The position numbers and the translations under genes were made by a program. The notes below the pieces were generated by a model, which saw only the letters and a list, made by a program, of their open reading frames with translations, did not search any database and was not told the origin of the DNA. Of a stretch of DNA of 64,000 nucleotides, positions 50,806 through 63,303 are shown in pieces (positions within the stretch are counted from its first letter, which is position 1; every line of letters starts with the position of its first letter). Source of the DNA: Sphingomonas hankookensis (GTDB taxonomy: Bacteria; Pseudomonadota; Alphaproteobacteria; Sphingomonadales; Sphingomonadaceae); assembly GCF_028551275.1 (NCBI RefSeq), contig NZ_CP117025.1, forward strand, positions 3,412,001-3,476,000, in the 5' to 3' direction.

Positions 50806-52086
50806 ATGGCAGGGTTTGCGGGCAAATTGATGCGCGGCGGGTTGCCGAACATGGCGATTCGCGGGTCGCAGCTCTTCTTCCGTTTCGCCCTGTCCTTCTA
50901 CATCGTCAGCGAGCTGGGGCTGGAGGCGGCGGGCATCTACGGCCTCGCGATCGGCGCGATCGGCATCGTGCCCGCGACGGTCGGCTGGGGCCTCAACTAT
51001 TTCATCTCGCGCGAGGTGGTGGGCCATACCCCGGCGACCGCCGCCGGGCTGATCCGCGACCGGCTGGCCATCACCATCGCGTCGCTGCTGGCCGGGACCA
51101 TCGTCGCCGTGCCGGTGCTGATCTGGATGACCGGGGGGTTGAGCGAGACCGCGATCCTGATCCTGGTCCTGCTGTGGCTGGAGACGCTGGCGCTCGACAT
51201 CTACATGCCGATGATCGGGCTGGAGATGGCGTTGTTCGCCAACGTCATGGTCTTCATCCGCTCGGCGCTGTGGATTCCGATCGTGGTCGGCATCGGCTTT
51301 GTCTATCCGCCGCTCCAGACGCTGAACGCGATCTTCCTCGGCTGGATCGCCAGCCATTTCGTCGCCTATGCGATGCTGTTCGTCTATCTGCGCCGCTGGC
51401 CGATCCGCGAGGGCCTGCGCGAGCGGATGCAGCTCGGACGGCTGGGCAAGCGGGTGCGGACGGCGTGGTACATCTATTTCAGCGACCTGGGCATCGTCGG
51501 TCTCGGCTATGCCGACCGCTTCATCCTGAACGCGCTGCTGGGGCTGACCGCGACCGGTATCTACAGCTTCTATTTCTCGATCACCAATGCGCTTCAGACG
51601 TTGATCGCGACCGCCGTGGTGCAGCTGGCGCTGCCGCGCATGGTGCGTGCCGCTCGCGGTGGCGACCGGGCCGAATGGCGCGCCGAACTGCGCCGGCAGA
51701 TGACCAAGACGCTGACCTATGCCGGGGTGCTGGGCGCGATCATCTTCGTCGCGACCGAGATCATCTTCTATGTCAGCCCCGAAGGGCGCTTCCCGGTCTA
51801 TCGCACGCTGCTGGCGGTGATGCTGCTGGCCGCGACGATCCGGTCGGGGTCGGACCTGCTGAACGTGGCGATCACCAGCATGGGGCGCGACCATGCCTAT
51901 GCCGTGACCAACGTCATCGGCGTCGTGCTGGCGCTGGTGTTCGGCGCGGGGTTCATGTGGGCGTTCGGGTTGATCGGCGCGGGCATTTCCGCCGTCGCCA
52001 CCGCGCTCAGCCTGCTGGTTATCCGGGGCGTCTATCTGCGCAATATCACGCAGCCTGCCATCGGCGCGGAAGGGAGCCCCGCATGA
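50806..52086 (+). CDS. Wzx-like polysaccharide flippase
   Basis: A 426-residue inner-membrane protein of the polysaccharide biosynthesis/MOP superfamily, with about 12 hydrophobic segments. The opening KLMRGGLPNMAIRGSQLFF and DLGIVGLGYADRFILNALLG are typical. It would move a lipid-linked oligosaccharide unit across the inner membrane. It overlaps the next gene by four bases (ATGA), so it belongs to an operon with the acetyltransferase and glycosyltransferase genes. Confidence 0.85.
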   Translation: MAGFAGKLMRGGLPNMAIRGSQLFFRFALSFYIVSELGLEAAGIYGLAIGAIGIVPATVGWGLNYFISREVVGHTPATAAGLIRDRLAITIASLLAGTIVAVPVLIWMTGGLSETAILILVLLWLETLALDIYMPMIGLEMALFANVMVFIRSALWIPIVVGIGFVYPPLQTLNAIFLGWIASHFVAYAMLFVYLRRWPIREGLRERMQLGRLGKRVRTAWYIYFSDLGIVGLGYADRFILNALLGLTATGIYSFYFSITNALQTLIATAVVQLALPRMVRAARGGDRAEWRAELRRQMTKTLTYAGVLGAIIFVATEIIFYVSPEGRFPVYRTLLAVMLLAATIRSGSDLLNVAITSMGRDHAYAVTNVIGVVLALVFGAGFMWAFGLIGAGISAVATALSLLVIRGVYLRNITQPAIGAEGSPA

Positions 52087-52679
52087 CCCGGCCGTCGATG
52101 GGTACCGGCTGGCGGCAGTTCCGCGAAGCGGTGGCGGGCGACCTAGCCCGCTTCGCGCGGGTCGGCGGGCGCCGCACACCGCAACGCGGCTTCCTGCTGA
52201 AGGCGTGGCTGTTCCTGCCCGGGTTCCGGTTCGTCCTGACGCATCGGTTGCAGGCCCTGATCGCGACCGTCCCGGTCGTCGGGCCATTGGTCGCCAAGCT
52301 CTACTGGGCGCGAAGCTGCCGCCGCTATGGTTCGGAAATCGCGCAGATCGCCCGTATCGGGCCGGGCTGCTACATCCCGCACCCCTATGCGGTCGTGCTG
52401 GGCGATTGCACGCTTGGCCGGAACGTGGTGATCCTCCAGAGCGTCACGATCGGGAAACGTGGCGACAGCGCGGCGCATGGCCCGCGGATTGGCGACGAAG
52501 TCGAGATCGGCGCCGGCGCGATCCTGCTCGGCGCGATCACGATCGGCGACGGGGCGCGGATCGGGGCCAATTCGCTCGTCCTGATCGATGTCCCGGCGGG
52601 CGCGATCGCCATGGGATCGCCGGCGCGCATCGTCCAGCCCAAGCCGCCTGCCCCGGAGCAAATCCATGAACGCGCCTGA
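52083..52679 (+). CDS. Hexapeptide-repeat acetyltransferase (serine acetyltransferase-like)
   Basis: A 198-residue left-handed beta-helix enzyme. An N-terminal helical part (REAVAGDLARFARVGG, GFLLKAWLFLPGFRFVL) precedes the hexapeptide repeats GCYIPHPYAVVLGD, GRNVVILQSVTIGKRGD, IGAGAILLGAITIGDGARIGANS and VPAGAIAMGSPARIV. The HPY/H pattern is like CysE and EPS acetyltransferases. In this setting it probably acetylates a polysaccharide precursor. A paralogue lies at 62725-63303. Start and stop overlap both neighbours. Confidence 0.85.
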   Translation: MTRPSMGTGWRQFREAVAGDLARFARVGGRRTPQRGFLLKAWLFLPGFRFVLTHRLQALIATVPVVGPLVAKLYWARSCRRYGSEIAQIARIGPGCYIPHPYAVVLGDCTLGRNVVILQSVTIGKRGDSAAHGPRIGDEVEIGAGAILLGAITIGDGARIGANSLVLIDVPAGAIAMGSPARIVQPKPPAPEQIHERA

Positions 52680-53895
52680 TTCCGGTCACCCGCTTCGTGT
52701 CTTCTATATCGGCGCCGGCGATCCGGTTTCGCCGCGATCGGGCATGGACGTCGTCGCGCGGGGGCATATCGCCGAACTCGCCCAATCGCCCGACATCGCG
52801 CTCAGCGGCGTGTTCGCCACCTTGCCGGCGGATGGTCCCGCCCCCTCGTTCGGCGGGGTGACCGGCTTTCGCGCCGATACCGCCAAGCCCCCCCGCGGAC
52901 GCAAGTTGCGCCACATGCTGTCGGGCAAGTTGCTGATGAGCATCGGCTTCGTGTCCGAAGCCGCCCGCCGCGCGGTCCGCGACGGGCTCGCCGCAAAGCC
53001 GGACATCGTGGTCGTCGACCATATCCAGGCGCTCGCCAACGTGTCGCTTTGGCGCCTGCTGGTCGGGCGCACGCCGTTCGTGTTCGTCGGCCACAATGTC
53101 ACGCCCGACACGCTGCTCGACGCGGCGCGACTGCGTACATCGCGGGCGTCGCGGCTGTTTCTGCGGCTGGAAGCGCTGCAGTCCTGGATCATGGAAGCGG
53201 CCTTGCTGCTGCGCGCTCGCCTGTCGGTCTTCATCTCGCACACCGATGCCGAGCGATACCGCCACTTGACCGGCAGTCGCGCGGTGGCGCTCTGCCCCGT
53301 GATCGAACGCGACGAAAGCGTGGCCAGGACGGGCGACGACCGAGACGCCCGCCGCGTCCTGTTCATCGGAAGCCCCGGCTTTCCGCCGAACCGCAGCGCG
53401 ATCGACTGGATCGTCCGCGAACTGGCCCCCCGCCTGCTGCAGCGCGACGTTCCGGTCACGGTCAGTTTCATCGGCGGCGGAACGCGCGACTATATCGGTC
53501 CGCCGGCGACGAATGTCGAAACGCTGGGGTTCGTGGCCGATGCGGAAATGGAGCGGCTGTTGTCGCAGTGCCTGTGCATGCTCAGTCCCGTCGTTCACGG
53601 CAGCGGCCTGAAGATCAAGGTGCTAGAAGCGTTCGCAGCCGGTGCCCCGGTTCTTGCCACGCCCCTGTCGCTGCAGGGATTTGGATTCATGGGACAGCCG
53701 CCGATGCTGGACCTCGCGGACCCCGATGCCGCGGTCAACCGGATCGCCGCGCTCGCCGCCGACCCCGTCGCCGCGGCGTCGCTGCGCGATCAGGTCCGCC
53801 GCGCATGGAGTGCGCATGTCGCGGCACGGCACGGCGCGCTGGCCGACGCCATCCGCGTCGCAGCCGGACGTCGCCGGGTGCATCGGACAGGATAG
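52666..53895 (+). CDS. Glycosyltransferase (GT4-like)
   Basis: A 409-residue GT-B fold enzyme. The N-domain begins RVFYIGAGDPVSPRSGMDVVARGHI; the C-domain has VLFIGSPGFPPNRSAIDWIV, VETLGFVADAEMERLLS and SGLKIKVLEAFAAGAPVLATPLSLQG with the nucleotide-binding Glu. The sugar is unknown. Overlaps the acetyltransferase gene by 14 bases. Confidence 0.85.
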   Translation: MNAPDSGHPLRVFYIGAGDPVSPRSGMDVVARGHIAELAQSPDIALSGVFATLPADGPAPSFGGVTGFRADTAKPPRGRKLRHMLSGKLLMSIGFVSEAARRAVRDGLAAKPDIVVVDHIQALANVSLWRLLVGRTPFVFVGHNVTPDTLLDAARLRTSRASRLFLRLEALQSWIMEAALLLRARLSVFISHTDAERYRHLTGSRAVALCPVIERDESVARTGDDRDARRVLFIGSPGFPPNRSAIDWIVRELAPRLLQRDVPVTVSFIGGGTRDYIGPPATNVETLGFVADAEMERLLSQCLCMLSPVVHGSGLKIKVLEAFAAGAPVLATPLSLQGFGFMGQPPMLDLADPDAAVNRIAALAADPVAAASLRDQVRRAWSAHVAARHGALADAIRVAAGRRRVHRTG

Positions 53896-53904
53896 GATAA
53901 GGCG

Positions 53905-55053
53905 ATGACCACCGAGATATTGCCGGCCGGCGAAGCACCCACGCGCGCAATCCCCGCCGCTGTCCTCGACCAGAATCTTTCCATCTATCTCGACCTGTTG
54001 CGGCTGGTCGCGGCCGTGGAAGTCGTGCTGGGCCATGCCCGCCATTTCGTCATGCCGCGCCTGCCCGGTTTCCTGTCCGGGCATACGGGAGAAGCGGTCG
54101 CGATATTCTTCGTGCTGTCGGGTTTCGTGATCGCCTTCGTCGCCGACCGCAAGGAACGCACCCTGCGCAGCTACGCCACCGCGCGACTGTCTCGGCTCTT
54201 CTCGGTCTGCCTGATCGCGCTTGCGTCCAATGTCGTGTTCGATGCGATCAGCCGGCATTATGGCGCTCAGCCGCTGACCGCGCTGCCCTATTACAATGGC
54301 GATTACCTCGGCACGCTACCCTTCTCGCTGACGTTCACCAACGAACTGTGGTTCTCGCACCGGGTCTTCGGCACCAACGAGCCCTATTGGTCGCTCGGGT
54401 TCGAAGCGGCCTATTACGCCATCTTCGCGGCGTTCTTCTATGGCGGCCGGCGGCGGGGGGCGATCCTGGGGGTCGGGCTGATGCTGTTCTTCGGGCCGAA
54501 GATCGTCGCCTATATGCCCATCTGGCTGATCGGCTACGCTACCTATCACCTGCTGCGGACGGGACGCATCCGGCTGCATCCCGCGATGGCCGCCGGAGGC
54601 TTCGTGGTGTCGATCGGCCTCTATCTGATGGTCAAACGTACGATGGAGCATTGGGCGTCGCCGATGTTCGAGCCGGTTGCCGCCGAACAGCTGGCACGCA
54701 GCTTCGTCTATTTCGCGATCGTCGGCCTGCTGGTCGCGGTCAATATCGTGGCGTTGCGGCAGCTGGCACCGACACGCAGACTGATACCGGACCGCGTCGC
54801 TGCGGCGATCCGCTGGCTGGCCGGGGCCAGCTTCACGCTGTACCTGGTGCATCAGCCGTTCCTCGTCATGTTGTCGTCGCTGTTCCCCGGCATCCGCACC
54901 AGCGCAGTTGCGGGTGGCGCGGCCATCCTCGCGACGTTTGCGCTTGCCCTGGTGCTGGCGGAACTGGGGGAACGCCGCAAACGCACGTTCCAGTCGGCGT
55001 TCGGGCGGATTCTCGGCGTCGCACCTGCATCGAAGGATATGCCGGCGGCATGA
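53905..55053 (+). CDS. Acyltransferase family 3 membrane protein
   Basis: A 382-residue integral membrane acyltransferase. Conserved elements are LDLLRLVAAVEVVLGHARHF, EAVAIFFVLSGFVIAFV, ATARLSRLFSVCLIA and FTLYLVHQPFLVML. It probably decorates the local polysaccharide with acetyl or another acyl group. It begins nine bases after the glycosyltransferase stop and overlaps the next acyltransferase start by four bases. Confidence 0.87.
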   Translation: MTTEILPAGEAPTRAIPAAVLDQNLSIYLDLLRLVAAVEVVLGHARHFVMPRLPGFLSGHTGEAVAIFFVLSGFVIAFVADRKERTLRSYATARLSRLFSVCLIALASNVVFDAISRHYGAQPLTALPYYNGDYLGTLPFSLTFTNELWFSHRVFGTNEPYWSLGFEAAYYAIFAAFFYGGRRRGAILGVGLMLFFGPKIVAYMPIWLIGYATYHLLRTGRIRLHPAMAAGGFVVSIGLYLMVKRTMEHWASPMFEPVAAEQLARSFVYFAIVGLLVAVNIVALRQLAPTRRLIPDRVAAAIRWLAGASFTLYLVHQPFLVMLSSLFPGIRTSAVAGGAAILATFALALVLAELGERRKRTFQSAFGRILGVAPASKDMPAA

Positions 55054-56117
55054 ACATCGACCGTTCCGAAGCGGCCCCCGTCATCGGTGGCAAGCGTCCC
55101 GGCGTCATGCTGTACAATCTGCACGCGTTGCGCGCGGTGGCGGCGATCCTCGTCATCTTCGTGCATACCACCGACGTGCTGGCGCCGGTCGGACTGCGCG
55201 ACACCAAATTCTATTTCGGCATCGCCGGGGTCGACCTGTTCTTCGTCATCAGCGGGTTCGTGATGACCTTTACCCAGGATCGCAAACCGATCGCCCCGCG
55301 CGAATTCGCGATCCATCGCATCATCCGCGTCGTGCCGCTCTACTGGACGATGACGCTGGCGGTGTTCGCGGCGGCGATGGTCGTGCCATCGCTGTTCGCG
55401 TCGGAGACGGTGACGGTCGCCAAGCTGCTCCAGTCGCTCTTCTTCTGGCCGTACATGAATGATGTCGGCCGAATCCAGCCGCTGCTGTTCGTCGGTTGGA
55501 CGCTGAACTATGAATTCTTCTTCTACCTGATTTTCACGCTCAGCATCGCGCTCTGCGCCGGGCGGCAGCGGGTCGCGCCGTTGCTGTGCGTCGCGTTGCT
55601 GGCGGCGATCGTCGCGCTGGGCGCGGCCGTGCCCGACCTGCCGGTCGCGGCGCAATTCTTCTCCAATTCGGTGATCCTCGAATTCGCGCTGGGCATCGTC
55701 GCGGGCCGGCTGTTCGCGCGCGATGCGCTGCCGCGTGGAGCATGGGCGTGGGCGCTGATGGCGATCGGGTTCGTGGTGCTGCTGGGTGCCGAACAGGCGG
55801 GGCTGCGCGCGCCGCGGGTGCTGGTACAGGGGATCGCGGCGACCGTCGTGGTGGTCGCCGCGCTGGGCATCGAACGCGACGGCCATGCGCTGCGCGGGGC
55901 CTTCGTCCAGTTGCTGGGGGCGGCCAGCTACGCGCTCTATTTGTCGCATCCCTTCGTCATGAAGGCGTTCGGGATCGTCAGCCGCAAGCTGCCGGCGGGA
56001 CCGCTCACGTGGATGCTGGCGCTGCTGGCGATGATCGCGTCGGTGGCCGTCGCGATCGCGATCCACAAGCTGTACGAGGTGCCGGTCACCAAATGGCTGC
56101 GGCGGCGCGCGGGCTGA
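55050..56117 (+). CDS. Acyltransferase family 3 membrane protein
   Basis: A 355-residue membrane acyltransferase, third of this family in the locus. LHALRAVAAILVIFVHTTD carries the catalytic His, DLFFVISGFVMTFT and AIHRIIRVVPLYWTM the conserved Arg, and SYALYLSHPFVMKAF the C-terminal motif. It is coupled to the preceding gene through ATGA. It differs clearly from the preceding one, so a tandem duplication would be old. Confidence 0.87.
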   Translation: MNIDRSEAAPVIGGKRPGVMLYNLHALRAVAAILVIFVHTTDVLAPVGLRDTKFYFGIAGVDLFFVISGFVMTFTQDRKPIAPREFAIHRIIRVVPLYWTMTLAVFAAAMVVPSLFASETVTVAKLLQSLFFWPYMNDVGRIQPLLFVGWTLNYEFFFYLIFTLSIALCAGRQRVAPLLCVALLAAIVALGAAVPDLPVAAQFFSNSVILEFALGIVAGRLFARDALPRGAWAWALMAIGFVVLLGAEQAGLRAPRVLVQGIAATVVVVAALGIERDGHALRGAFVQLLGAASYALYLSHPFVMKAFGIVSRKLPAGPLTWMLALLAMIASVAVAIAIHKLYEVPVTKWLRRRAG

Positions 56118-56701: not shown

Positions 56702-58105
56702 TCAGTCGAACGTCGCGCCGAGCGGAACGCCCGACAGCGCCGACGCGTCGATCACCACCGGGCGCGTGCCGACATCGACCACCGCCGCGGCGGCGGACGG
56801 TGCCGGCTGGCACAGCGGGCGCGCGGCCACCGGTCGGCCGCCGAACGACAGATGGGCGACCTGCCCCTGCTGTTCGGCAAAGGCGACCAGCCGCCGCCCC
56901 TGCGCGCCGTCGAGCTGGATCAGCGTCAGTCCGCCCCCCTGGCGCAGTACCCGCCAGCGGCGCGCGGCATGGACGATCCGGGTGACGTCGGCGACCATGC
57001 AGACCGCCGGCTTCGGCCGGTAGTCGTAATCGAACAGCCCGAAATTATCCTCCAGCTCGGCCGGGTTCCGCCCCTGGTCGCGCAACTGGTAGATCCAAAC
57101 GCCGCCGATCCACGGCGTCGCCGCCGCCCACAACAGGAATTGCGCGGCATTGTCGCCCGCCACCTGGCGCGGAATGTCGCAATGCCCGCCGGTCGTCGTC
57201 GGCCATCCGGTTTCGGTGATGTAGAGCCGGGGAGCCTTCGCCCCCTGCGACGCGACCAGTTTGCGCCGCAGCCCTTCGATCCGGCCGATCGCTTCGGTCG
57301 CGGTGCGGTATCCGGGGCGCAGGCAGTGGTTGTAATAATGGACCGACAGGCCGCTCGCCTGCTGCGCCGCGCCCTGTGCGACGATCGCGTCGGTCCATAG
57401 CCATTGCGGGTCCTCGCCCACCGCGCCGACCAGCACGACCGCGTTCGGATCGGCCTTGCGGATCGCGGCGACGGTCCGCTTGGCCAGCGCGGTGTAGTTG
57501 CCGGCCGAGCGCGGATCGTCCGGCTGTCCGGCATCGGTCAGCTTGGGCCGGCCGAGGACCGCGCCCATATTCCATTCGTTCCACACCTCGTACATCGGCG
57601 GTTTGGCGCGCATCGCCGCCGCCGCCTCGCCGGCAAAGGCCGCGAATTTGGCGCGCCCCTCCTCGTCGATCGGGGAGGCACCCTTGCGGAACGCGGGATG
57701 GCCGTAATCGACCGCCAGCAGCGGACGCGCCGGCGTCGCGGCGATCATCCCCGCCAGGCGCGGCGACAGCGATCCGGGCTGGTCCAGCCCGTTGCGCTTG
57801 AACACCTGCCACGGCAGGTCGTCGCGGAACGAATCGACCCCCAGCGTCGCGATCGCCTTCGCGGTCGGGGTCGCTTCGTAACCGAAGGTGTGGTTCAGCC
57901 CGAAATGCACGCCGACACCCATGGTCAGCGGCGTGGCGCGGGCGGGCAGCGCGGAATAGTCGAGTTTCAGCGACAGCGGTTCGGCGGCGCGCATCGTCCC
58001 GCGCGACCATAGCAGCGACAGCGCGATCGCCGCGACGCCGACCAGCCCGGCCGAAGCGATGGTCGCGCTGCGTCGGCGGTCGGAGCGGTGCCAGGATCGT
58101 TGCAT
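56702..58105 (-). CDS. Exported glycoside hydrolase, clan GH-A (PslG/GH39-like)
   Basis: A 467-residue protein with an N-terminal membrane or signal segment (ATIASAGLVGVAAIALSLLW). The barrel carries the two clan GH-A glutamates, acid/base in YEVWNEWNMG and nucleophile in LYITETGWPTTTGG, and starts with GVHFGLNHTFGYEA. PslG of Pseudomonas, a GH39 enzyme coded in the Psl locus, has this plan and trims its own polysaccharide; the position in an EPS locus suggests a similar job here. A C-terminal beta domain follows. GGAG precedes the ATG at 58105; sequence further upstream to 58318 is not used. Confidence 0.75.
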   Translation of the reverse strand: MQRSWHRSDRRRSATIASAGLVGVAAIALSLLWSRGTMRAAEPLSLKLDYSALPARATPLTMGVGVHFGLNHTFGYEATPTAKAIATLGVDSFRDDLPWQVFKRNGLDQPGSLSPRLAGMIAATPARPLLAVDYGHPAFRKGASPIDEEGRAKFAAFAGEAAAAMRAKPPMYEVWNEWNMGAVLGRPKLTDAGQPDDPRSAGNYTALAKRTVAAIRKADPNAVVLVGAVGEDPQWLWTDAIVAQGAAQQASGLSVHYYNHCLRPGYRTATEAIGRIEGLRRKLVASQGAKAPRLYITETGWPTTTGGHCDIPRQVAGDNAAQFLLWAAATPWIGGVWIYQLRDQGRNPAELEDNFGLFDYDYRPKPAVCMVADVTRIVHAARRWRVLRQGGGLTLIQLDGAQGRRLVAFAEQQGQVAHLSFGGRPVAARPLCQPAPSAAAAVVDVGTRPVVIDASALSGVPLGATFD

Positions 58106-58307
58106 GTTCTTCTCCGCGGCGATTGGGGACGCCTGGACATACCGCATTGCGGCATGACTACCAATGCGCCGGCGGCGGCCGTGGCACGGCCGGTCGGAAT
58201 TATCGCGCATCGGGACGCGGTTAGGCCGGTCGGGAGGCCGCACGGGACTCGATTTCCTTTCGCAGTCGCGGCATAGCCGCCCCATGCCAGCCGATCGGGA
58301 TCGCCCC

Positions 58308-59381
58308 ATGCCGCACATCTACGTCAACGGACGCTTTCTCGGTCGTCCGGTGACCGGCGTCGAACGCTTCGCTCATATGGTGCTGGACCGCATCCACGAC
58401 CGCCAGCCGCAGGACGGTCGCGCGCCGGGGATCACCATTCTCGCCCCGCCGGGAATCGATGCGCCGGCGAAATGGCCGCGCTTCGCCTTTCGCACGGTGG
58501 GCAGCGGCGGCGGCCATCGCTGGGAACAGCTGTCGCTGCCCGGTGCCGCACGCGACGGCATCCTGCTCGGGCTGTGCAACGCCAACCCGGTGCGCAGCCG
58601 CCGCGCGCTGACCGTGATCCACGATGCCGCCGTCTATGATTTCGGGCAGGGTTTCGCGCGCAGCTATCGCCTGCTCCACCGCACGCTCGGCCGGTTGCTG
58701 GCCCGCCGGTCGCATATCGCCACCGTCTCGCGCTTTTCGCAGGCGCGGCTGGCGGCGGTGCTGGGGGTCAAGGGCGAGCGGATCGCGGTGATCCCCAACG
58801 CCGCCGACCATATCCGCGCGATCACGCCGGACGAGACGGTCCTCGAGCGCCACGGCCTGACGCCGGGCAAGTTCCTGCTGATCGTCGGGTCGTTCGCGCC
58901 GAACAAGAACCTGCCGCGCGCGATCCGCGCCTTTCGCGCGATCGCCCGGCCCGACGACCGGCTGGTGCTGGTCGGCGCGGCGGTGCGATCGTTCGCCGAC
59001 AACGCCATGGGCGCGGTGCCCGAAGGGGTGATCCTGCCCGGCCGCATCGGCGACGAGGCGCTGATGACGCTCTACGCCCATGCCCGCGCGCTGGTCTTCC
59101 CCAGCCTGTACGAAGGGTTCGGCATCCCCCCGCTGGAGGCGATGCAGTTCGGCACGCCGGTCGTCGCATCGACCATCGCGCCGGTGCGCGAAGTCTGCGC
59201 CGACGCCGCGCTCTATTGCGATCCGGAGGACGAGGCCGCACTCGGCGCGGCGATGCGCCAGATGCTGGACGACGACGACGTCCATGCCCGGCTGTCCGCC
59301 GCCGCCCGCGCCCGGGCGCTCGCGTTCGACTGGGACGACAGCGCGACACGGCTGCTGGACACGCTCGCCGCCATCGGGTGA
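58308..59381 (+). CDS. Glycosyltransferase family 4
   Basis: A 357-residue GT-B enzyme. The N-terminus is HIYVNGRFLGRPVTGVERFA; the donor site lies in LLIVGSFAPNKNLPRAIRAF and FPSLYEGFGIPPLEAMQFG, with the EGFGIPPLE signature of mannosyltransferase-like GT4 proteins. The ATG at 58308 has GGGA upstream and was preferred over the ATG at 58284. With GDP-mannose genes nearby in the window, mannose transfer is plausible. Confidence 0.88.
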   Translation: MPHIYVNGRFLGRPVTGVERFAHMVLDRIHDRQPQDGRAPGITILAPPGIDAPAKWPRFAFRTVGSGGGHRWEQLSLPGAARDGILLGLCNANPVRSRRALTVIHDAAVYDFGQGFARSYRLLHRTLGRLLARRSHIATVSRFSQARLAAVLGVKGERIAVIPNAADHIRAITPDETVLERHGLTPGKFLLIVGSFAPNKNLPRAIRAFRAIARPDDRLVLVGAAVRSFADNAMGAVPEGVILPGRIGDEALMTLYAHARALVFPSLYEGFGIPPLEAMQFGTPVVASTIAPVREVCADAALYCDPEDEAALGAAMRQMLDDDDVHARLSAAARARALAFDWDDSATRLLDTLAAIG

Positions 59382-59416: not shown

Positions 59417-59698
59417 ATGACGGAGGCACGCAATCATGCCCGTGCCTTTCCGTGGCTCGGGCGGCGGATACCGGGCTGAATCGCGCTGCTGTCCGGGTTG
59501 CTGCCGGCGTTCGCCATCGGCGTCCTGCTGTGGCGCTATCGCCCGGCGCTGCCGCTTTCGGCACTGGGCGTGCCGTGCATCGCCGGCCTGATGATCGCGT
59601 GCCCGTTGCTCGATCGCTGGTACGACCGCCCGGTCAATCGCTGGCTGAACCGGCGGTTCGGGGGCCGCGCGGATCCGGCGCGGATGGCGGCCCCCTGA
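59417..59698 (+). pseudogene. Small membrane-protein reading frame broken by an in-frame TGA (acyltransferase remnant?)
   Basis: An ATG at 59417 with a good GGGAGG sequence opens 20 codons, then TGA (59477-59479). The same frame continues to a stop at 59698 with two hydrophobic segments (LLPAFAIGVLLW; LGVPCIAGLMIACPLL) and DRPVNRWLNRRFGG. The last part resembles the C-terminal end of acyltransferase-3 proteins. It may be a decayed acyltransferase with its middle lost, or a short protein starting after the TGA at a TTG (59498). Position between a glycosyltransferase and the SGNH gene. Confidence 0.4.
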
Positions 59699-59702
59699 CG
59701 CA

Positions 59703-61010
59703 TCAATAGTCGCTGTCGCGCCGCTTGAGCGCCATCTGCCGCACGACGAACTGGCAGCTGCCCGACCCGGCCGACAGCGCCCGCACCGACAGCTGGGCAA
59801 AGCCGCCGCTGCCGACATTCGCGCGGATCAGGTGCGGGCGGGTGCGCAGCGTCAGCCGCATCGCCTTGTCCACCCCGACATAATTCGCCGCCGCTGGGGC
59901 ATAGAGACAGAAATTGTCGTAGCTCTGCCCGCCCGCCCCGGTATTCTGGGTAAATTGCAGGTAGAGCGAGGCCAGCCCGGACGGCGTGCCGAGGATGTCG
60001 ACGACCGCCACCCCCTCCACGAGGTCGCCGGGCAACAGGTTGGCGGTCGCAACGTCCTGATGCAGCCGCACCTGCGCATTGGCGGCGGTGAAGCTGGCAT
60101 CGATCGCGACGTTGTTGCCCAGGCCATCGGGATCGGCCTGCGTCGCATAGGTAGCACTTGCCCCGGTGCCGGCCGATCCGACGAAGCCGGCCGGGATCGT
60201 GCCGCTCGCCCCGTTCGCCGCCGTGCCGCCATTGGCCGTCACGAACAAAGGGTTGGCGACCAGCTGCCGCCGGCCATTGCCCGACAGCGCGGCGCGCATG
60301 TTGAGCGCGGCCCCCGGTCGCGCTGGCACGATCGCTCCCAGCAGCGCGGCGAGGCTTTCCCCCCAATAGGCAGCACCCCGCCCGTTCAGATGGGTTCCGT
60401 CATAGGCATGGGCGGCGCGGAACTGCACCGCGCTGTCGGAATAGGCGGGCTGCATCGCCACCAGCCTTGCGTCATGGACATGGACGCCCGGCGCGCGTTC
60501 GGCATGGTCGAACAGCATTGCGTTCAGGTCGTTGACCTGTCCGATCTGCGCGGCGGACAGCGCGTTGCTGCCGACCTCCGCCTCGACCACCACGATCATC
60601 CCGGCTGCCCGCGCGGTATCGATCATCGTGCGGATATTGGCGAAGGCGGTCGCCCCGCTGGTCGCGGCGCTGGGATAATTCTGGGCGATGTCGTTCAGCC
60701 CGGCATGGATGTAGAGCAGCCCCGCCCCGGTGCCGATCGCCGACGACAGGCGCGGCAGCATCTGGTCGGTCCGGTCGCCGGACTTGCCGAAACACGCTCC
60801 GATCACCAGCCGCTGCCCCAACAGGGCATTGGCCCAGTTGACCGGCGAGGTCGCGGCATAGCCGCGCTGGCCGCTGTCGATATAGATCGCCGCCGCGCGG
60901 CTGTCGCCCAGCGCTGTCACGACATGCGGCAGCCGGCGATTGGGCAGGACGGACAGCCGGGCGAGGCTGGACGGATTGGCGCCACCGACGGCACCCGAAG
61001 TGCGCGCCAT
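59703..61010 (-). CDS. SGNH hydrolase, probable spike-type esterase next to a GTA-like spike base protein
   Basis: A 435-residue protein without a signal peptide. An SGNH esterase domain fills the middle: VTALGDSRAAA (nucleophile Ser), YIHAGLNDIAQNYP (GxND) and DGTHLNGRGAAYW (catalytic Asp and His). About 190 C-terminal residues look beta-rich (SYDNFCLYAPAAANYVG) like a carbohydrate-binding or trimer part. The absence of export signal, and the gene two bases downstream of a spike-base gene, suggest a virion or gene-transfer-agent spike rather than a secreted enzyme. It could deacetylate the polysaccharide made by this locus. Confidence 0.75.
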   Translation of the reverse strand: MARTSGAVGGANPSSLARLSVLPNRRLPHVVTALGDSRAAAIYIDSGQRGYAATSPVNWANALLGQRLVIGACFGKSGDRTDQMLPRLSSAIGTGAGLLYIHAGLNDIAQNYPSAATSGATAFANIRTMIDTARAAGMIVVVEAEVGSNALSAAQIGQVNDLNAMLFDHAERAPGVHVHDARLVAMQPAYSDSAVQFRAAHAYDGTHLNGRGAAYWGESLAALLGAIVPARPGAALNMRAALSGNGRRQLVANPLFVTANGGTAANGASGTIPAGFVGSAGTGASATYATQADPDGLGNNVAIDASFTAANAQVRLHQDVATANLLPGDLVEGVAVVDILGTPSGLASLYLQFTQNTGAGGQSYDNFCLYAPAAANYVGVDKAMRLTLRTRPHLIRANVGSGGFAQLSVRALSAGSGSCQFVVRQMALKRRDSDY

Positions 61011-61012
61011 GG

Positions 61013-61279
61013 TCAGGCCTCCGCGATCAGGTTGGTCGCGGTCGTCCCGGTCGCGCGGACATATTGCGCGCGCACCGCGACATAGCTGGCGTCGGGAAGG
61101 TTGCGATAGGTGACGTCGGCGCTGCCGCGCACCCCGCGCAGCGTCAGGTCGCCACCGGTCCCGACATAGATCCCCTTGGGCACGACGGGCAGTTCCTGCG
61201 TATCGCTCGGCACGACGGCAAAGGGTGCGGTGGCCGGAGCCTCGGGGCTGTCGGCATGGGCGGAAAAGCGATCGGCCAT
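61013..61279 (-). CDS. Spike base protein, RCAP_Rcc01079 family (gene transfer agent head spike-like)
   Basis: An 88-residue protein with the pattern of the Rhodobacter gene transfer agent spike base: MADRFSAHADSPEAPA, PSDTQELPVVPKGIYVGTGGDL, RGSADVTYRNLPDASY and the end ATGTTATNLIAEA. AGGAGG stands five bases before the ATG at 61279; an in-frame start at 61303 is less likely. It overlaps no gene and is followed two bases later by the SGNH gene, forming a two-gene unit. No other GTA or phage structural genes are in the window. Confidence 0.8.
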   Translation of the reverse strand: MADRFSAHADSPEAPATAPFAVVPSDTQELPVVPKGIYVGTGGDLTLRGVRGSADVTYRNLPDASYVAVRAQYVRATGTTATNLIAEA

Positions 61280-61371
61280 GGTTCCTCCTGTCTCGGCCGG
61301 CACGGTGCCGGCACAGGAGTTCCCGCTATGTTCTCGTCAGGCTAATGTATCCAACAATCGCCCCCGCTCCT

Positions 61372-62562
61372 TCAGGCGGCGTCCCCGGCGTAGAAGGACA
61401 GATAGTTGCCGACGACCTTTTCCTCCGAAAACGCCTCCAGCACCTCGGGCGCGACGCCGCGCACCGCGCGCCAGTCGTCGGCCGATGCGAGCGCGGTCGC
61501 CAGCCGTTCGGCAAGCGCCGCCGCATCGTCCTTGGCATAGATCGCGCCCAGCAGGGCGAGATGGCCGATCTCGGGCGTGCCGCCGGCATCGGAATAGATC
61601 ACCGCCTTGCCGCGTGCCAGGCAGTCGATCATCGTGCGCGGCAACGGTTCGGGCCAGGTCGACGAGATGATGACGACATCGACCCCGGCATAGAAATCAT
61701 CGGCATTGACGAACCCCAGCCAGCGGATGCGCGGATCGGGGTAGCGTGCCTGCAGGTCGGCGACATAGCTGCCCTTGCCCGCGCCCGCGATCACCAATTG
61801 CCAGTCGGGCCGCTCCAGCCGGGCAAAGGCGTCCAGCACGACCTCGATCCCCTTTTCGGGTTCGACCCGCCCGATGAACCCGAACGTCAGCCCGCCATCC
61901 TCGGGCACCGCCGCCGGGGTCGGGGCGGAGCGGACATCGGCGATGTTGAAGATCACGCGCGCATCGGTGTCGTTGAAATAGCCATGGCGACGATGGGTAT
62001 CGATGACATATTGGCTGTTCGACGCGACCGCATCGACCAGCACCGAATTGTCCTTCTTGCGCCCGGTCAGCAGCTTGCAGTCGACGCAGCGCTGCACGCA
62101 GTCATGCCCGCCGCGATAGAGCGAGGCGCGCGCGCACAACAGGCTATAGTCGCGCAGCGTGTGGACGATGCGGATATTGCGCCGTTTGGCCTCGGCCCAG
62201 ATTTCGGTCGAGAACCCTTGCAGGTTGTTGGTGTGCAGCACGTCCGGGCGGATGCGATCCATCAGCGCGACGAGATCGCGGGTCGCCGCCGGATTGCGCC
62301 GGTCGCGCAGATGCCATGCCAGGCGGCGGGGCTTGGATTCGTTGCGTTCGGCGTCGAACGGCCAGTACAGGTTGCGTAGCGGCAAGCGGTGGATCGTCAC
62401 CGCGCCGTCCTGTTCCTCGCGCTGGTCGTCGGCGTCGTGCAGGCTGGCGACATGGACCTCGTGCCCGCGCCGGGCGGCGGCCCGCGCCAGCAGCGCGACG
62501 CTGCGTTCCGCGCCGCCCACGGTCGATGGCGGGTACAGGGTATTGACGATAAAAACCTTCAC
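61372..62562 (-). CDS. Glycosyltransferase family 4
   Basis: A 396-residue GT-B enzyme. The N-domain starts MKVFIVNTLYPPSTVGGAERS and has DVLHTNNLQGFS; a cysteine cluster (CVQRCVDCKLL) lies mid-protein, as in a subset of GT4 enzymes. The donor site is FGFIGRVEPEKGIEVVLDAF and the acidic end SSTWPEPLPRTMIDCLARG. The partial glycosyltransferase at 63352 has the same cysteine cluster and a similar start. It is transcribed opposite to most of the locus. Confidence 0.87.
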   Translation of the reverse strand: MKVFIVNTLYPPSTVGGAERSVALLARAAARRGHEVHVASLHDADDQREEQDGAVTIHRLPLRNLYWPFDAERNESKPRRLAWHLRDRRNPAATRDLVALMDRIRPDVLHTNNLQGFSTEIWAEAKRRNIRIVHTLRDYSLLCARASLYRGGHDCVQRCVDCKLLTGRKKDNSVLVDAVASNSQYVIDTHRRHGYFNDTDARVIFNIADVRSAPTPAAVPEDGGLTFGFIGRVEPEKGIEVVLDAFARLERPDWQLVIAGAGKGSYVADLQARYPDPRIRWLGFVNADDFYAGVDVVIISSTWPEPLPRTMIDCLARGKAVIYSDAGGTPEIGHLALLGAIYAKDDAAALAERLATALASADDWRAVRGVAPEVLEAFSEEKVVGNYLSFYAGDAA

Positions 62563-62724
62563 GACCGCGTCTCCGCCCCTTTTCGACCGATGCCGCCCCG
62601 ACGACGTAGCGGCGCTACTATCAGCTTACGTCCGGTAAGGATATGGTAGCGCAGGAGACGATACGAAGGTTTCATGCCGCACTGCAACCTTGACCCGGTG
62701 CGTGCTTGCGACGAAGGCCCACGC

Positions 62725-63303
62725 ATGACCGATGCATCGTCCCGATCCCCACGATTTCGCACGCTGGTACAGCAGGATATCGCCCATTTCGCCCGGCGCG
62801 ACGGCGAAGCGATCACGCGCGGCTTCCTGCTGCGCCTGTTCCTGCTGACCCAGGGGTTCCAGTTCGTGCTGGCCCGGCGGATCCAGGACGTGTTGCCGCG
62901 CCTGCCGCTCGTCGGGCGACCGGCACGGCGGATCTGGTGGTGGTGGACCTGTCGCCGCTTCGGTGCCGAGCTGGCGATCGACGCGACCTTCGGCGGCGGC
63001 CTCTACATACCCCATCCCTATGGCATCGTCGTCGGCGCCTGTACCGTCGGGCGGGACGTCACGATCCTGCAGAATGTGACGATCGGCACCCGTAGCAGCG
63101 ACGATATCGGTCGCGCAACGATTGGCGATGGAACTTATCTAGCCGCTGGTGCGGTTATACTGGGTCCGGTACGAATCGGTGCCGGCGCAAGGATCGGCGC
63201 AAACGCCGTCGTATTGCAGGACGTCGCGGCGGGGGAGGCCGCAGTCGGCGTGCCTGCGCGAACGGTACGTTCCGCGCATAACGCCGATCTTCACTTGAAT
63301 TAA
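62725..63303 (+). CDS. Hexapeptide-repeat acetyltransferase (paralogue of 52083-52679)
   Basis: A 192-residue serine acetyltransferase-like enzyme. Its layout follows the gene at 52083: LVQQDIAHFARRDGE, RGFLLRLFLLTQGFQFVLARR, then GGGLYIPHPYGIVVGAC, GRDVTILQNVTIGTRSSD and ILGPVRIGAGARIGANAVV. The family call is firm; the acceptor is not known. The ATG at 62725 follows GAAGG; an earlier in-frame ATG at 62674 lacks one. Confidence 0.85.
   Translation: MTDASSRSPRFRTLVQQDIAHFARRDGEAITRGFLLRLFLLTQGFQFVLARRIQDVLPRLPLVGRPARRIWWWWTCRRFGAELAIDATFGGGLYIPHPYGIVVGACTVGRDVTILQNVTIGTRSSDDIGRATIGDGTYLAAGAVILGPVRIGAGARIGANAVVLQDVAAGEAAVGVPARTVRSAHNADLHLN

Follow-up and report, generated by a model that had tools for sequence, protein, structure and literature searches.

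Why does an exopolysaccharide locus of Sphingomonas hankookensis carry two adjacent genes that resemble the head spike of a gene transfer agent (GTA), and what would a spike do there? The pair lies in a 64,000-nucleotide stretch of contig NZ_CP117025.1 (RefSeq assembly GCF_028551275.1, positions 3,412,001 to 3,476,000), called the window below; coordinates refer to the window unless prefixed, and G, L and P numbers are our own handles. The analysis led us to the view that the pair is the head spike of the strain's own GTA, which is of the Rhodobacter capsulatus type (RcGTA-like), and that it is kept as a receptor cassette in the exopolysaccharide locus; we put the probability of this reading at roughly 0.73. 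The identification as a GTA head spike is well supported because the genome has its own RcGTA-like cluster, the base gene stands behind the capsid gene in congeners, and the pair has a GTA-type promoter.

The spike base and its SGNH partner

Both open reading frames (ORFs) are on the minus strand and are separated by 2 nt. The upstream one (61013..61279) encodes the spike base of 88 amino acids. It scored 102.6 bits (cut-off 28, E 1.1e-29) against the NCBIfam model NF048002, 'spike base protein, RCAP_Rcc01079 family', and matched the solved RcGTA spike base 6tb9 over residues 3-83 (E 1.3e-9); these matches establish it as a member of the Rcc01079 family. It is not a chance frame because comparison with the base of the relative Leaf32 indicated purifying selection (nonsynonymous divergence, dN, 0.043; synonymous divergence, dS, 0.308). 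The family also occurs in phages (phrog_12296), with at most 40.5% identity to the S. hankookensis base; identity to bases encoded within GTA clusters was 48-56%, above any phage compared.

The second ORF (59703..61010) encodes a 435-residue SGNH hydrolase, the predicted spike tip. Its SGNH domain (residues 33-214, 60369..60914) was defined by the range of the Pfam match PF13472 (60.6 bits against a cut-off of 32.9, E 3.7e-16) and by the residues D36-S37, G78, N106, D204 and H207, which were invariant in an alignment of the tip with 29 of its 57 search matches, i.e. 30 of the 58 sequences at hand. The alignment establishes that the catalytic residues of an SGNH enzyme are intact in the predicted protein. 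The structural model (mean predicted local distance difference test, pLDDT, 90.8; predicted template modelling score, pTM, 0.89) consisted of an alpha/beta domain and a C-terminal beta-sandwich, located by DSSP at about residues 244-431 (59718..60281). In Foldseek searches the model matched SGNH acylhydrolases, and part of the chain matched carbohydrate-binding modules (6r31, 2c26, 4d0q). The best whole-chain fold matches were phage proteins, such as Rhodococcus phage ReqiPine5 gp21 and the esterase of Gordonia phage Lambo, and phrog_6102 'lipase' and phage esterases were among the sequence matches. Residues 1-11 were modelled with low confidence; they are part of the presumed docking head (residues 1-18, MARTSGAVGGANPSSLAR, 60957..61010), the kind of which follows the C-terminus of the base in a set of 83 pairs described below. 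No hydrophobic, signal-like N-terminus was seen in the tip sequence.

The initial annotation had described the 88-residue protein as a member of the RcGTA spike base family and the partner 2 nt behind it as an SGNH protein without a signal and with a beta-rich C-terminus. The former was borne out by the NF048002 and 6tb9 matches, the latter by PF13472, inspection of the sequence and the model. Its view of the flanking genes as functioning in polysaccharide synthesis and acylation also held, Pfam having recognized GT4 glycosyltransferase, acyltransferase-3 and hexapeptide transferase families among them.

The GTA cluster of the strain and the promoter of the pair

The capsid cluster on which the spike assignment had been made to depend is present: an RcGTA-like cluster was found in the same genome at C1:743744-758233, 2.7 Mb from the pair. 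A first probe hit a tail-completion gene at C1:750226. The capsid gene g5 (C1:748234-749259) matched Rcc01687 with E 3.5e-81, and other ORFs of the cluster are, by inspection, the terminase, portal, protease and tail genes. Fifteen of the 16 ORFs examined, including the portal gene, were open. There was no spike base between g5 and g6 of this cluster.

A promoter motif connects the pair with such clusters. A core of the form G(T/C/A)AC..A....GAAC was present upstream of the first gene in 30 of 35 GTA clusters (17 of the 20 fetched clusters, 8 of the 10 in-cluster ones and all five of the own clade) and was not seen upstream of those of G003, G010, G027, L052 and L054. Its typical form is TTGACA...GTACATAACGGGAAC, with TTTGTTGGATACAAA...GTACATAACGGGAAC in five genomes; in the GTA cluster of S. 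hankookensis GCACAAAACAGGAAC stands 86 nt upstream of the first ORF. The pair has the core GAACATAGCGGGAAC 54 nt before the start of the base gene (61319..61333, minus strand), and the element ATTGTTGGATACATT upstream of it (61344..61358, minus strand) resembles the TTTGTTGGATACAAA of the GTA-cluster promoters of five congeners, although the spacing differs. This stretch is kept in Leaf32 and in the metagenome-assembled genome (MAG) S2C13626, the core of the MAG differing at one base.

When both strands of the window were scanned with a matrix derived from 23 GTA-cluster sites from outside the own clade (duplicate sites of G014 and G064 omitted), the site of the pair ranked first with a score of 16.8, and the runner-up had 4.1. 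The form GWACATANNNGGAAC was found once in the window, at the promoter of the pair, and at none of 287,392 control positions (both strands, 14 places). The out-of-cluster pairs, dereplicated at 80% base identity and including those in phage surroundings, numbered 51; 12 of them outscored every one of 1904 control pieces and 20 surpassed the 99% level. None of 15 in-cluster bases exceeded the best control piece. These scans establish the promoter match between the pair and the GTA clusters, and a GTA-type activator may bind the site. In Caulobacter the activator acts at about 18 accessory GTA promoters (PMC11150451), and the spike genes of R. capsulatus are triggered, with other late GTA genes, by CtrA and GafA (PMC9638019).

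GAAC-N7-GAAC is also the alphaproteobacterial LexA motif (PMC8565304). The exact motif occurred at promoter-like distance from recA in 6 of 10 tested genomes and in none of the four own-clade ones, so that a plain LexA/SOS box at the -54 site was rejected. Moreover, GTA-cluster forms like GTACATAACGGGAAC are not perfect repeats, and therefore a GTA promoter element fits better than LexA. LexA may nevertheless have a share at this site; a LexA-type site has been predicted at the GTA cluster of D. shibae (PMC6473078). Another motif, TCCTACA, was present upstream of 34 of the 51 out-of-cluster pairs (e.g. L097, L100, L111, L143), of none of the 15 in-cluster bases and nowhere in 143,696 control bases. 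In promoters with both motifs it often precedes the GAAC core by 17 nt; it is absent from the promoter of the S. hankookensis pair.

Bases, tips and polysaccharide loci in relatives

The base was found in 42 of 121 congeneric genomes, and a capsid match (E 1e-20) in 89, or 86 after removal of the phage-like matches of G030, G092 and G107. In 15 of the 121 the base is the next gene after the capsid, the two matches being 26 to 275 nt apart; it is followed by a tip in some genomes and by g6 without an adjacent tip in others. Sphingomonas sp. ATCC 31555 (L110), a producer of welan gum, has a spike base inside its GTA cluster. In-cluster bases and intact out-of-cluster pairs were mutually exclusive (0/15 vs 15/71, one-sided p 0.04). 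The base was associated with the GTA capsid in the genus (36/86 vs 6/35 without capsid, p 0.007) and in a sample of 397 genomes of the family (any base, 59/246 vs 14/151, p 1e-4). For strong bases not seen in-cluster among the family matches listed, the figures were 39/235 vs 9/151 (p 0.001, or 0.03 if 12 of the 39 are in fact in-cluster). Fourteen of 18 named genomes with out-of-cluster bases had a capsid match. G038, without a capsid or g12/13 match, has a disrupted base and tip, and the incomplete genome G020 a short tip. The tips of L096 (a MAG) and L099 (S. phyllosphaerae FA2) have 167 and 173 residues, compared with 384 in relatives, and their matches are in two frames; they are decaying spike tips.

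Pfam assigned five of ten partners to SGNH (two of them weaker than E 1e-3), one weakly to SASA, one to a T4 gp9/10 head and the rest to no family. Since no Pfam family was found for the L040, L052, L043 and L045 tips, lectin-like and lyase-like labels given to several tips by eye were dropped. The notion that esterase tips occur only outside the GTA cluster was also abandoned, as the in-cluster pair of Chakrabartia (L132) seems, by inspection, to have a GDS-bearing tip.

The N-termini of the tips are of two kinds, SG-rich (MxRTSGxxGG...LAR) and hydrophobic (LGF/LGL). The latter, which accompany other bases than that of S. hankookensis, are comparable to IALGLGLGL, the N-terminal head peptide of Rcc01080 (GhsB) that binds five pockets of the base (PMC7296036). 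Among 83 pairs with an adjacent partner, related pairs being counted as separate, bases ending in E[AG] were combined with SG-head tips in 22 of 27 cases, the other five having another head kind, and all other bases in 2 of 56; both of these exceptions (L164, L165) are LGF-type by eye and were misread by the pattern. By inspection, relatives of the S. hankookensis tip body begin with a head of the SG type, of the LGF type or of another type, or with a signal peptide (the last in P0030, P0051, P0053 and P0054). The tip of Leaf9 and that of a second pair in the S. hankookensis genome are 79% identical over 436 residues and differ in their first residues, the heads. As heads track base ends and similar bodies carry dissimilar heads, the short N-terminal head appears to couple the tip to the base, and bodies appear to have been traded. 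These alignments establish the agreement between head and base end and the exchange of tips. The second pair (C1:213110), consisting of a base 25% identical to the first and an SGNH-like tip, lies in a region (C1:203001-223000, L039) with low G+C content at third codon positions and with phage-like and insertion-sequence-like genes by inspection.

The pair is flanked by two GT4 genes, one upstream (61372..62562, minus strand; PF00534, E 6e-23) and one downstream (58164..59381, plus strand; PF00534, E 3e-28). Further out are a hexapeptide transferase (62674..63303, plus strand; PF00132, E 2e-12), a glycoside-hydrolase-like protein (56702..58318, minus strand; PF00150, E 7.5e-4, below the cut-off) and, on the plus strand, a decoration module (52083..56117) of a second hexapeptide transferase, a glycosyltransferase and two acyltransferase-3 genes. 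Apart from the acyltransferase-3 gene at 53905..55053 (plus strand; PF01757, E 1.8e-21) the module genes were named by inspection, as was the flippase-like gene (50806..52086, plus strand) that served as marker for the presence of the locus. An ORF directly behind the tip gene (59498-59698) resembles, by inspection, the end of an acyltransferase-3 gene and is possibly a recombination scar. No phage structural or replication genes were seen beside the pair, the neighbours being polysaccharide genes; a prophage was rejected on account of these neighbours, the purifying selection and the promoter.

Similar surroundings were found elsewhere. Pfam analysis of 111 genes around 15 out-of-cluster pairs (drawn from 205 genes around 28 pairs) identified GT4 9 times, acyltransferase-3 8, GT2 6, pyruvyl transferase 5, flippase 4, and WecG and Wzy_C 3 times each. 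None of these was among the 25 listed of the 177 families in 94 control genes (13 places, from 96 genes in 14 places). The pairs of L057, L063, L075 and L076 adjoin type I secretion genes (ABC, HlyD, and OEP in two of the four), and RTX or cadherin-like proteins are encoded near some of them; this may simply reflect the presence of such genes in polysaccharide loci.

The initial annotation had further proposed that receptor and spike change together when the locus is exchanged. Leaf32 and the MAG match the S. hankookensis locus from 46688 to 71220 with about 70-97% identity per gene, except for the tip, which is of another SGNH kind, and the decoration module, the genes of which have no matches in these two loci (L090 and L089). 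At the place of the module Leaf32 has an acyltransferase-3-like sequence (by inspection) in two frames that looks degraded (L090:14970-16070). The S. hankookensis tip kind recurs in G027 and G111 (43-46% identity) and the first three module genes in G061, G070 and G034 (65-69%), so that both changes are most simply placed on the branch of Leaf32 and the MAG. Leaf9, equally close by its capsid (94%), lacks the flippase marker and has another base (71%) with another tip, beside polysaccharide genes; the gene preceding this base is not in S. hankookensis, Leaf32 or the MAG. These two contrasts are suggestive of joint change, as far as gene comparison goes, and fall short of proof. That receptor and spike always change together was not upheld: in G111 a tip of the S. 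hankookensis kind occurs with different decoration genes, and in the loci of G061, G070 and G034 no pair separates the two GT4 genes, the pair thus being optional.

The same observations bear on the strongest alternative, that the pair is a GTA spike that came to lie in a recombination-prone region by accident and that the tip acts on something else. The pairless loci and G111 speak for it, and in-cluster bases manage without linkage to polysaccharide genes. We nevertheless consider an accidental placement unlikely, although it deserves to be taken seriously: polysaccharide families surround pairs of many lineages, Leaf9 has its different pair in a different polysaccharide locus, and in R. capsulatus the spike genes are adjacent to, and co-regulated with, the capsule genes rcc01081-01086 (PMC10218006).

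A proposed receptor cassette, its rivals and its meaning

If the pair is the head spike of the strain's GTA, the 88-residue protein would form the spike base on the capsid vertices and the SGNH protein an exchangeable tip, docked on the base by its flexible N-terminal head (MxRTSGxxGG...LAR). The beta-sandwich would bind the polysaccharide, and the esterase would strip acyl groups added by the acyltransferases of the same locus. Particles could in this way adhere to the coat of cells having the same locus, and might also thin it. The promoter 54 nt upstream would have the pair expressed at the same time as the capsid cluster. We infer the assembly on particles, the physical docking of the head and the activity of the tip on the strain's own polysaccharide, and likewise that the lock-key linkage is under selection.

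Several observations weigh against this reading. Rcc01080 was not among the PDB matches of the tip (its full-length form was not confirmed in that library), and the tip begins with MARTSGAVGG and lacks the IALGLGLGL peptide. In this assembly g11, the tape-measure gene of the strain's GTA cluster, is split over two frames (C1:752122-752666; L007:12122-12666), through either a sequencing error or a real break; the gene is open in Leaf32, the MAG, Leaf9 and G117. With the promoter matrix, 31 of the 51 out-of-cluster pairs did not reach the 99% level of the controls. GTA-bearing G061 and G070 have the locus without the pair. The association of out-of-cluster pairs with the capsid in the genus is weak (15/71 vs 2/35, p 0.03; p rises to 0.06 when G035 and G097 are counted and to 0.15 on inclusion of weaker or decayed pairs) and was calculated with a hand-picked list of intact pairs that left out G035, G066, G097, phage-context and decayed pairs; all association tests ignored relatedness. 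Two of the 17 genomes on that list, G060 and G076, had no capsid match: beside their open pairs G060 has only pieces of g12/13, and G076 only a scrap of the GTA cluster. In G003 the capsid is present and the base truncated, and four of the 18 named genomes (N. resinovorum, Q. sphaerica, N. umbonatum and S. indicum BiD32) have an out-of-cluster base without a capsid match.

Pair-bearing genomes without a capsid would be accounted for if the SGNH protein were a host surface enzyme that trims the strain's own polysaccharide, with the small jelly-roll protein as its scaffold and no GTA particle involved. The position within a polysaccharide locus, the relatives of the tip body that have signal peptides by inspection, and the several pairs beside type I secretion genes agree with such a role. 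It is made improbable by the missing signal of the tip itself, the GTA-type promoter, the base adjoining the capsid gene in 15 congeners, and the agreement of heads with base ends across different bodies. Least probable is that a phage spike was captured or left behind and plays no part in a GTA today: the base family occurs in phages (phrog_12296, up to 40.5% identity), the genome's second pair is in a phage-like region and g11 is out of frame, but the base is under purifying selection (dN 0.043, dS 0.308), no phage genes were seen beside the pair, and the base is closer to in-cluster GTA bases (48-56%) than to any phage compared.

The closest known counterpart of the proposed GTA spike is GhsA/GhsB of RcGTA (rcc01079/rcc01080), which has the same base family and is likewise a two-gene spike outside the GTA cluster beside surface-polysaccharide genes. 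In contrast to GhsB, the S. hankookensis tip is an SGNH hydrolase with another head and with no likeness to Rcc01080 among its PDB matches. Moreover, sphingomonad tips are exchanged between relatives, the pairs are spread over several polysaccharide loci that are unrelated to one another, and some congeners have the base inside the GTA cluster. The phage SGNH/GDSL esterases (ReqiPine5 gp21, Lambo esterase) are similar to the tip in whole-chain fold and sequence; they differ in that the head of the tip goes with a GTA-type base, in a host locus and behind a GTA-type promoter. The RcGTA tailspike TspA (PMC13420450) resembles the tip proposed here in being a GTA-particle enzyme that degrades polysaccharide or biofilm, but it is a different protein situated on the baseplate; the excerpts of the TspA paper make no mention of an esterase head spike. 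It has been argued that receptor genes bring about kin restriction (PMC10883770), ectopic GTA loci have been described as faster-evolving (PMC13420450), and a GTA cluster in a Sphingomonas (PMC8067484) and spike genes matching Rhodobacter phages (PMC8601537) are in print. Among the papers listed by searches of the GTA and head-spike literature, which was mostly freely accessible and without the 2016 J Mol Biol paper, none was seen to describe an esterase head spike or the sphingomonad arrangement. What would be new here is a spike that is enzymatic and exchangeable and is run from a GTA-type promoter; a spike beside capsule genes is already known from R. capsulatus.

More generally, and tentatively, at somewhat less than even odds, sphingomonad GTA spikes may be movable lock-and-key cassettes: a base and an exchangeable carbohydrate-active tip under a GTA-type promoter, parked in the polysaccharide locus of the strain, so that synthesis and recognition of the receptor are inherited as a unit; a swap of the short N-terminal head would let tips move between spikes of phage type and of GTA type. 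The short promoter motif and the rule relating head to base end can be used to seek GTA accessory genes in other genomes. GTAs repay their cost by reaching kin, and targeting is known mainly from one species. The clade offers a natural experiment: in some genomes the base is part of the GTA cluster, in others it lies elsewhere, in one of several polysaccharide loci, and others again lack it or have a swapped tip. This makes it testable whether gene donation is aimed by a linked receptor and spike. If the proposal is true, the cassette would be a greenbeard-like device that aims the donation of DNA at cells with the same coat.
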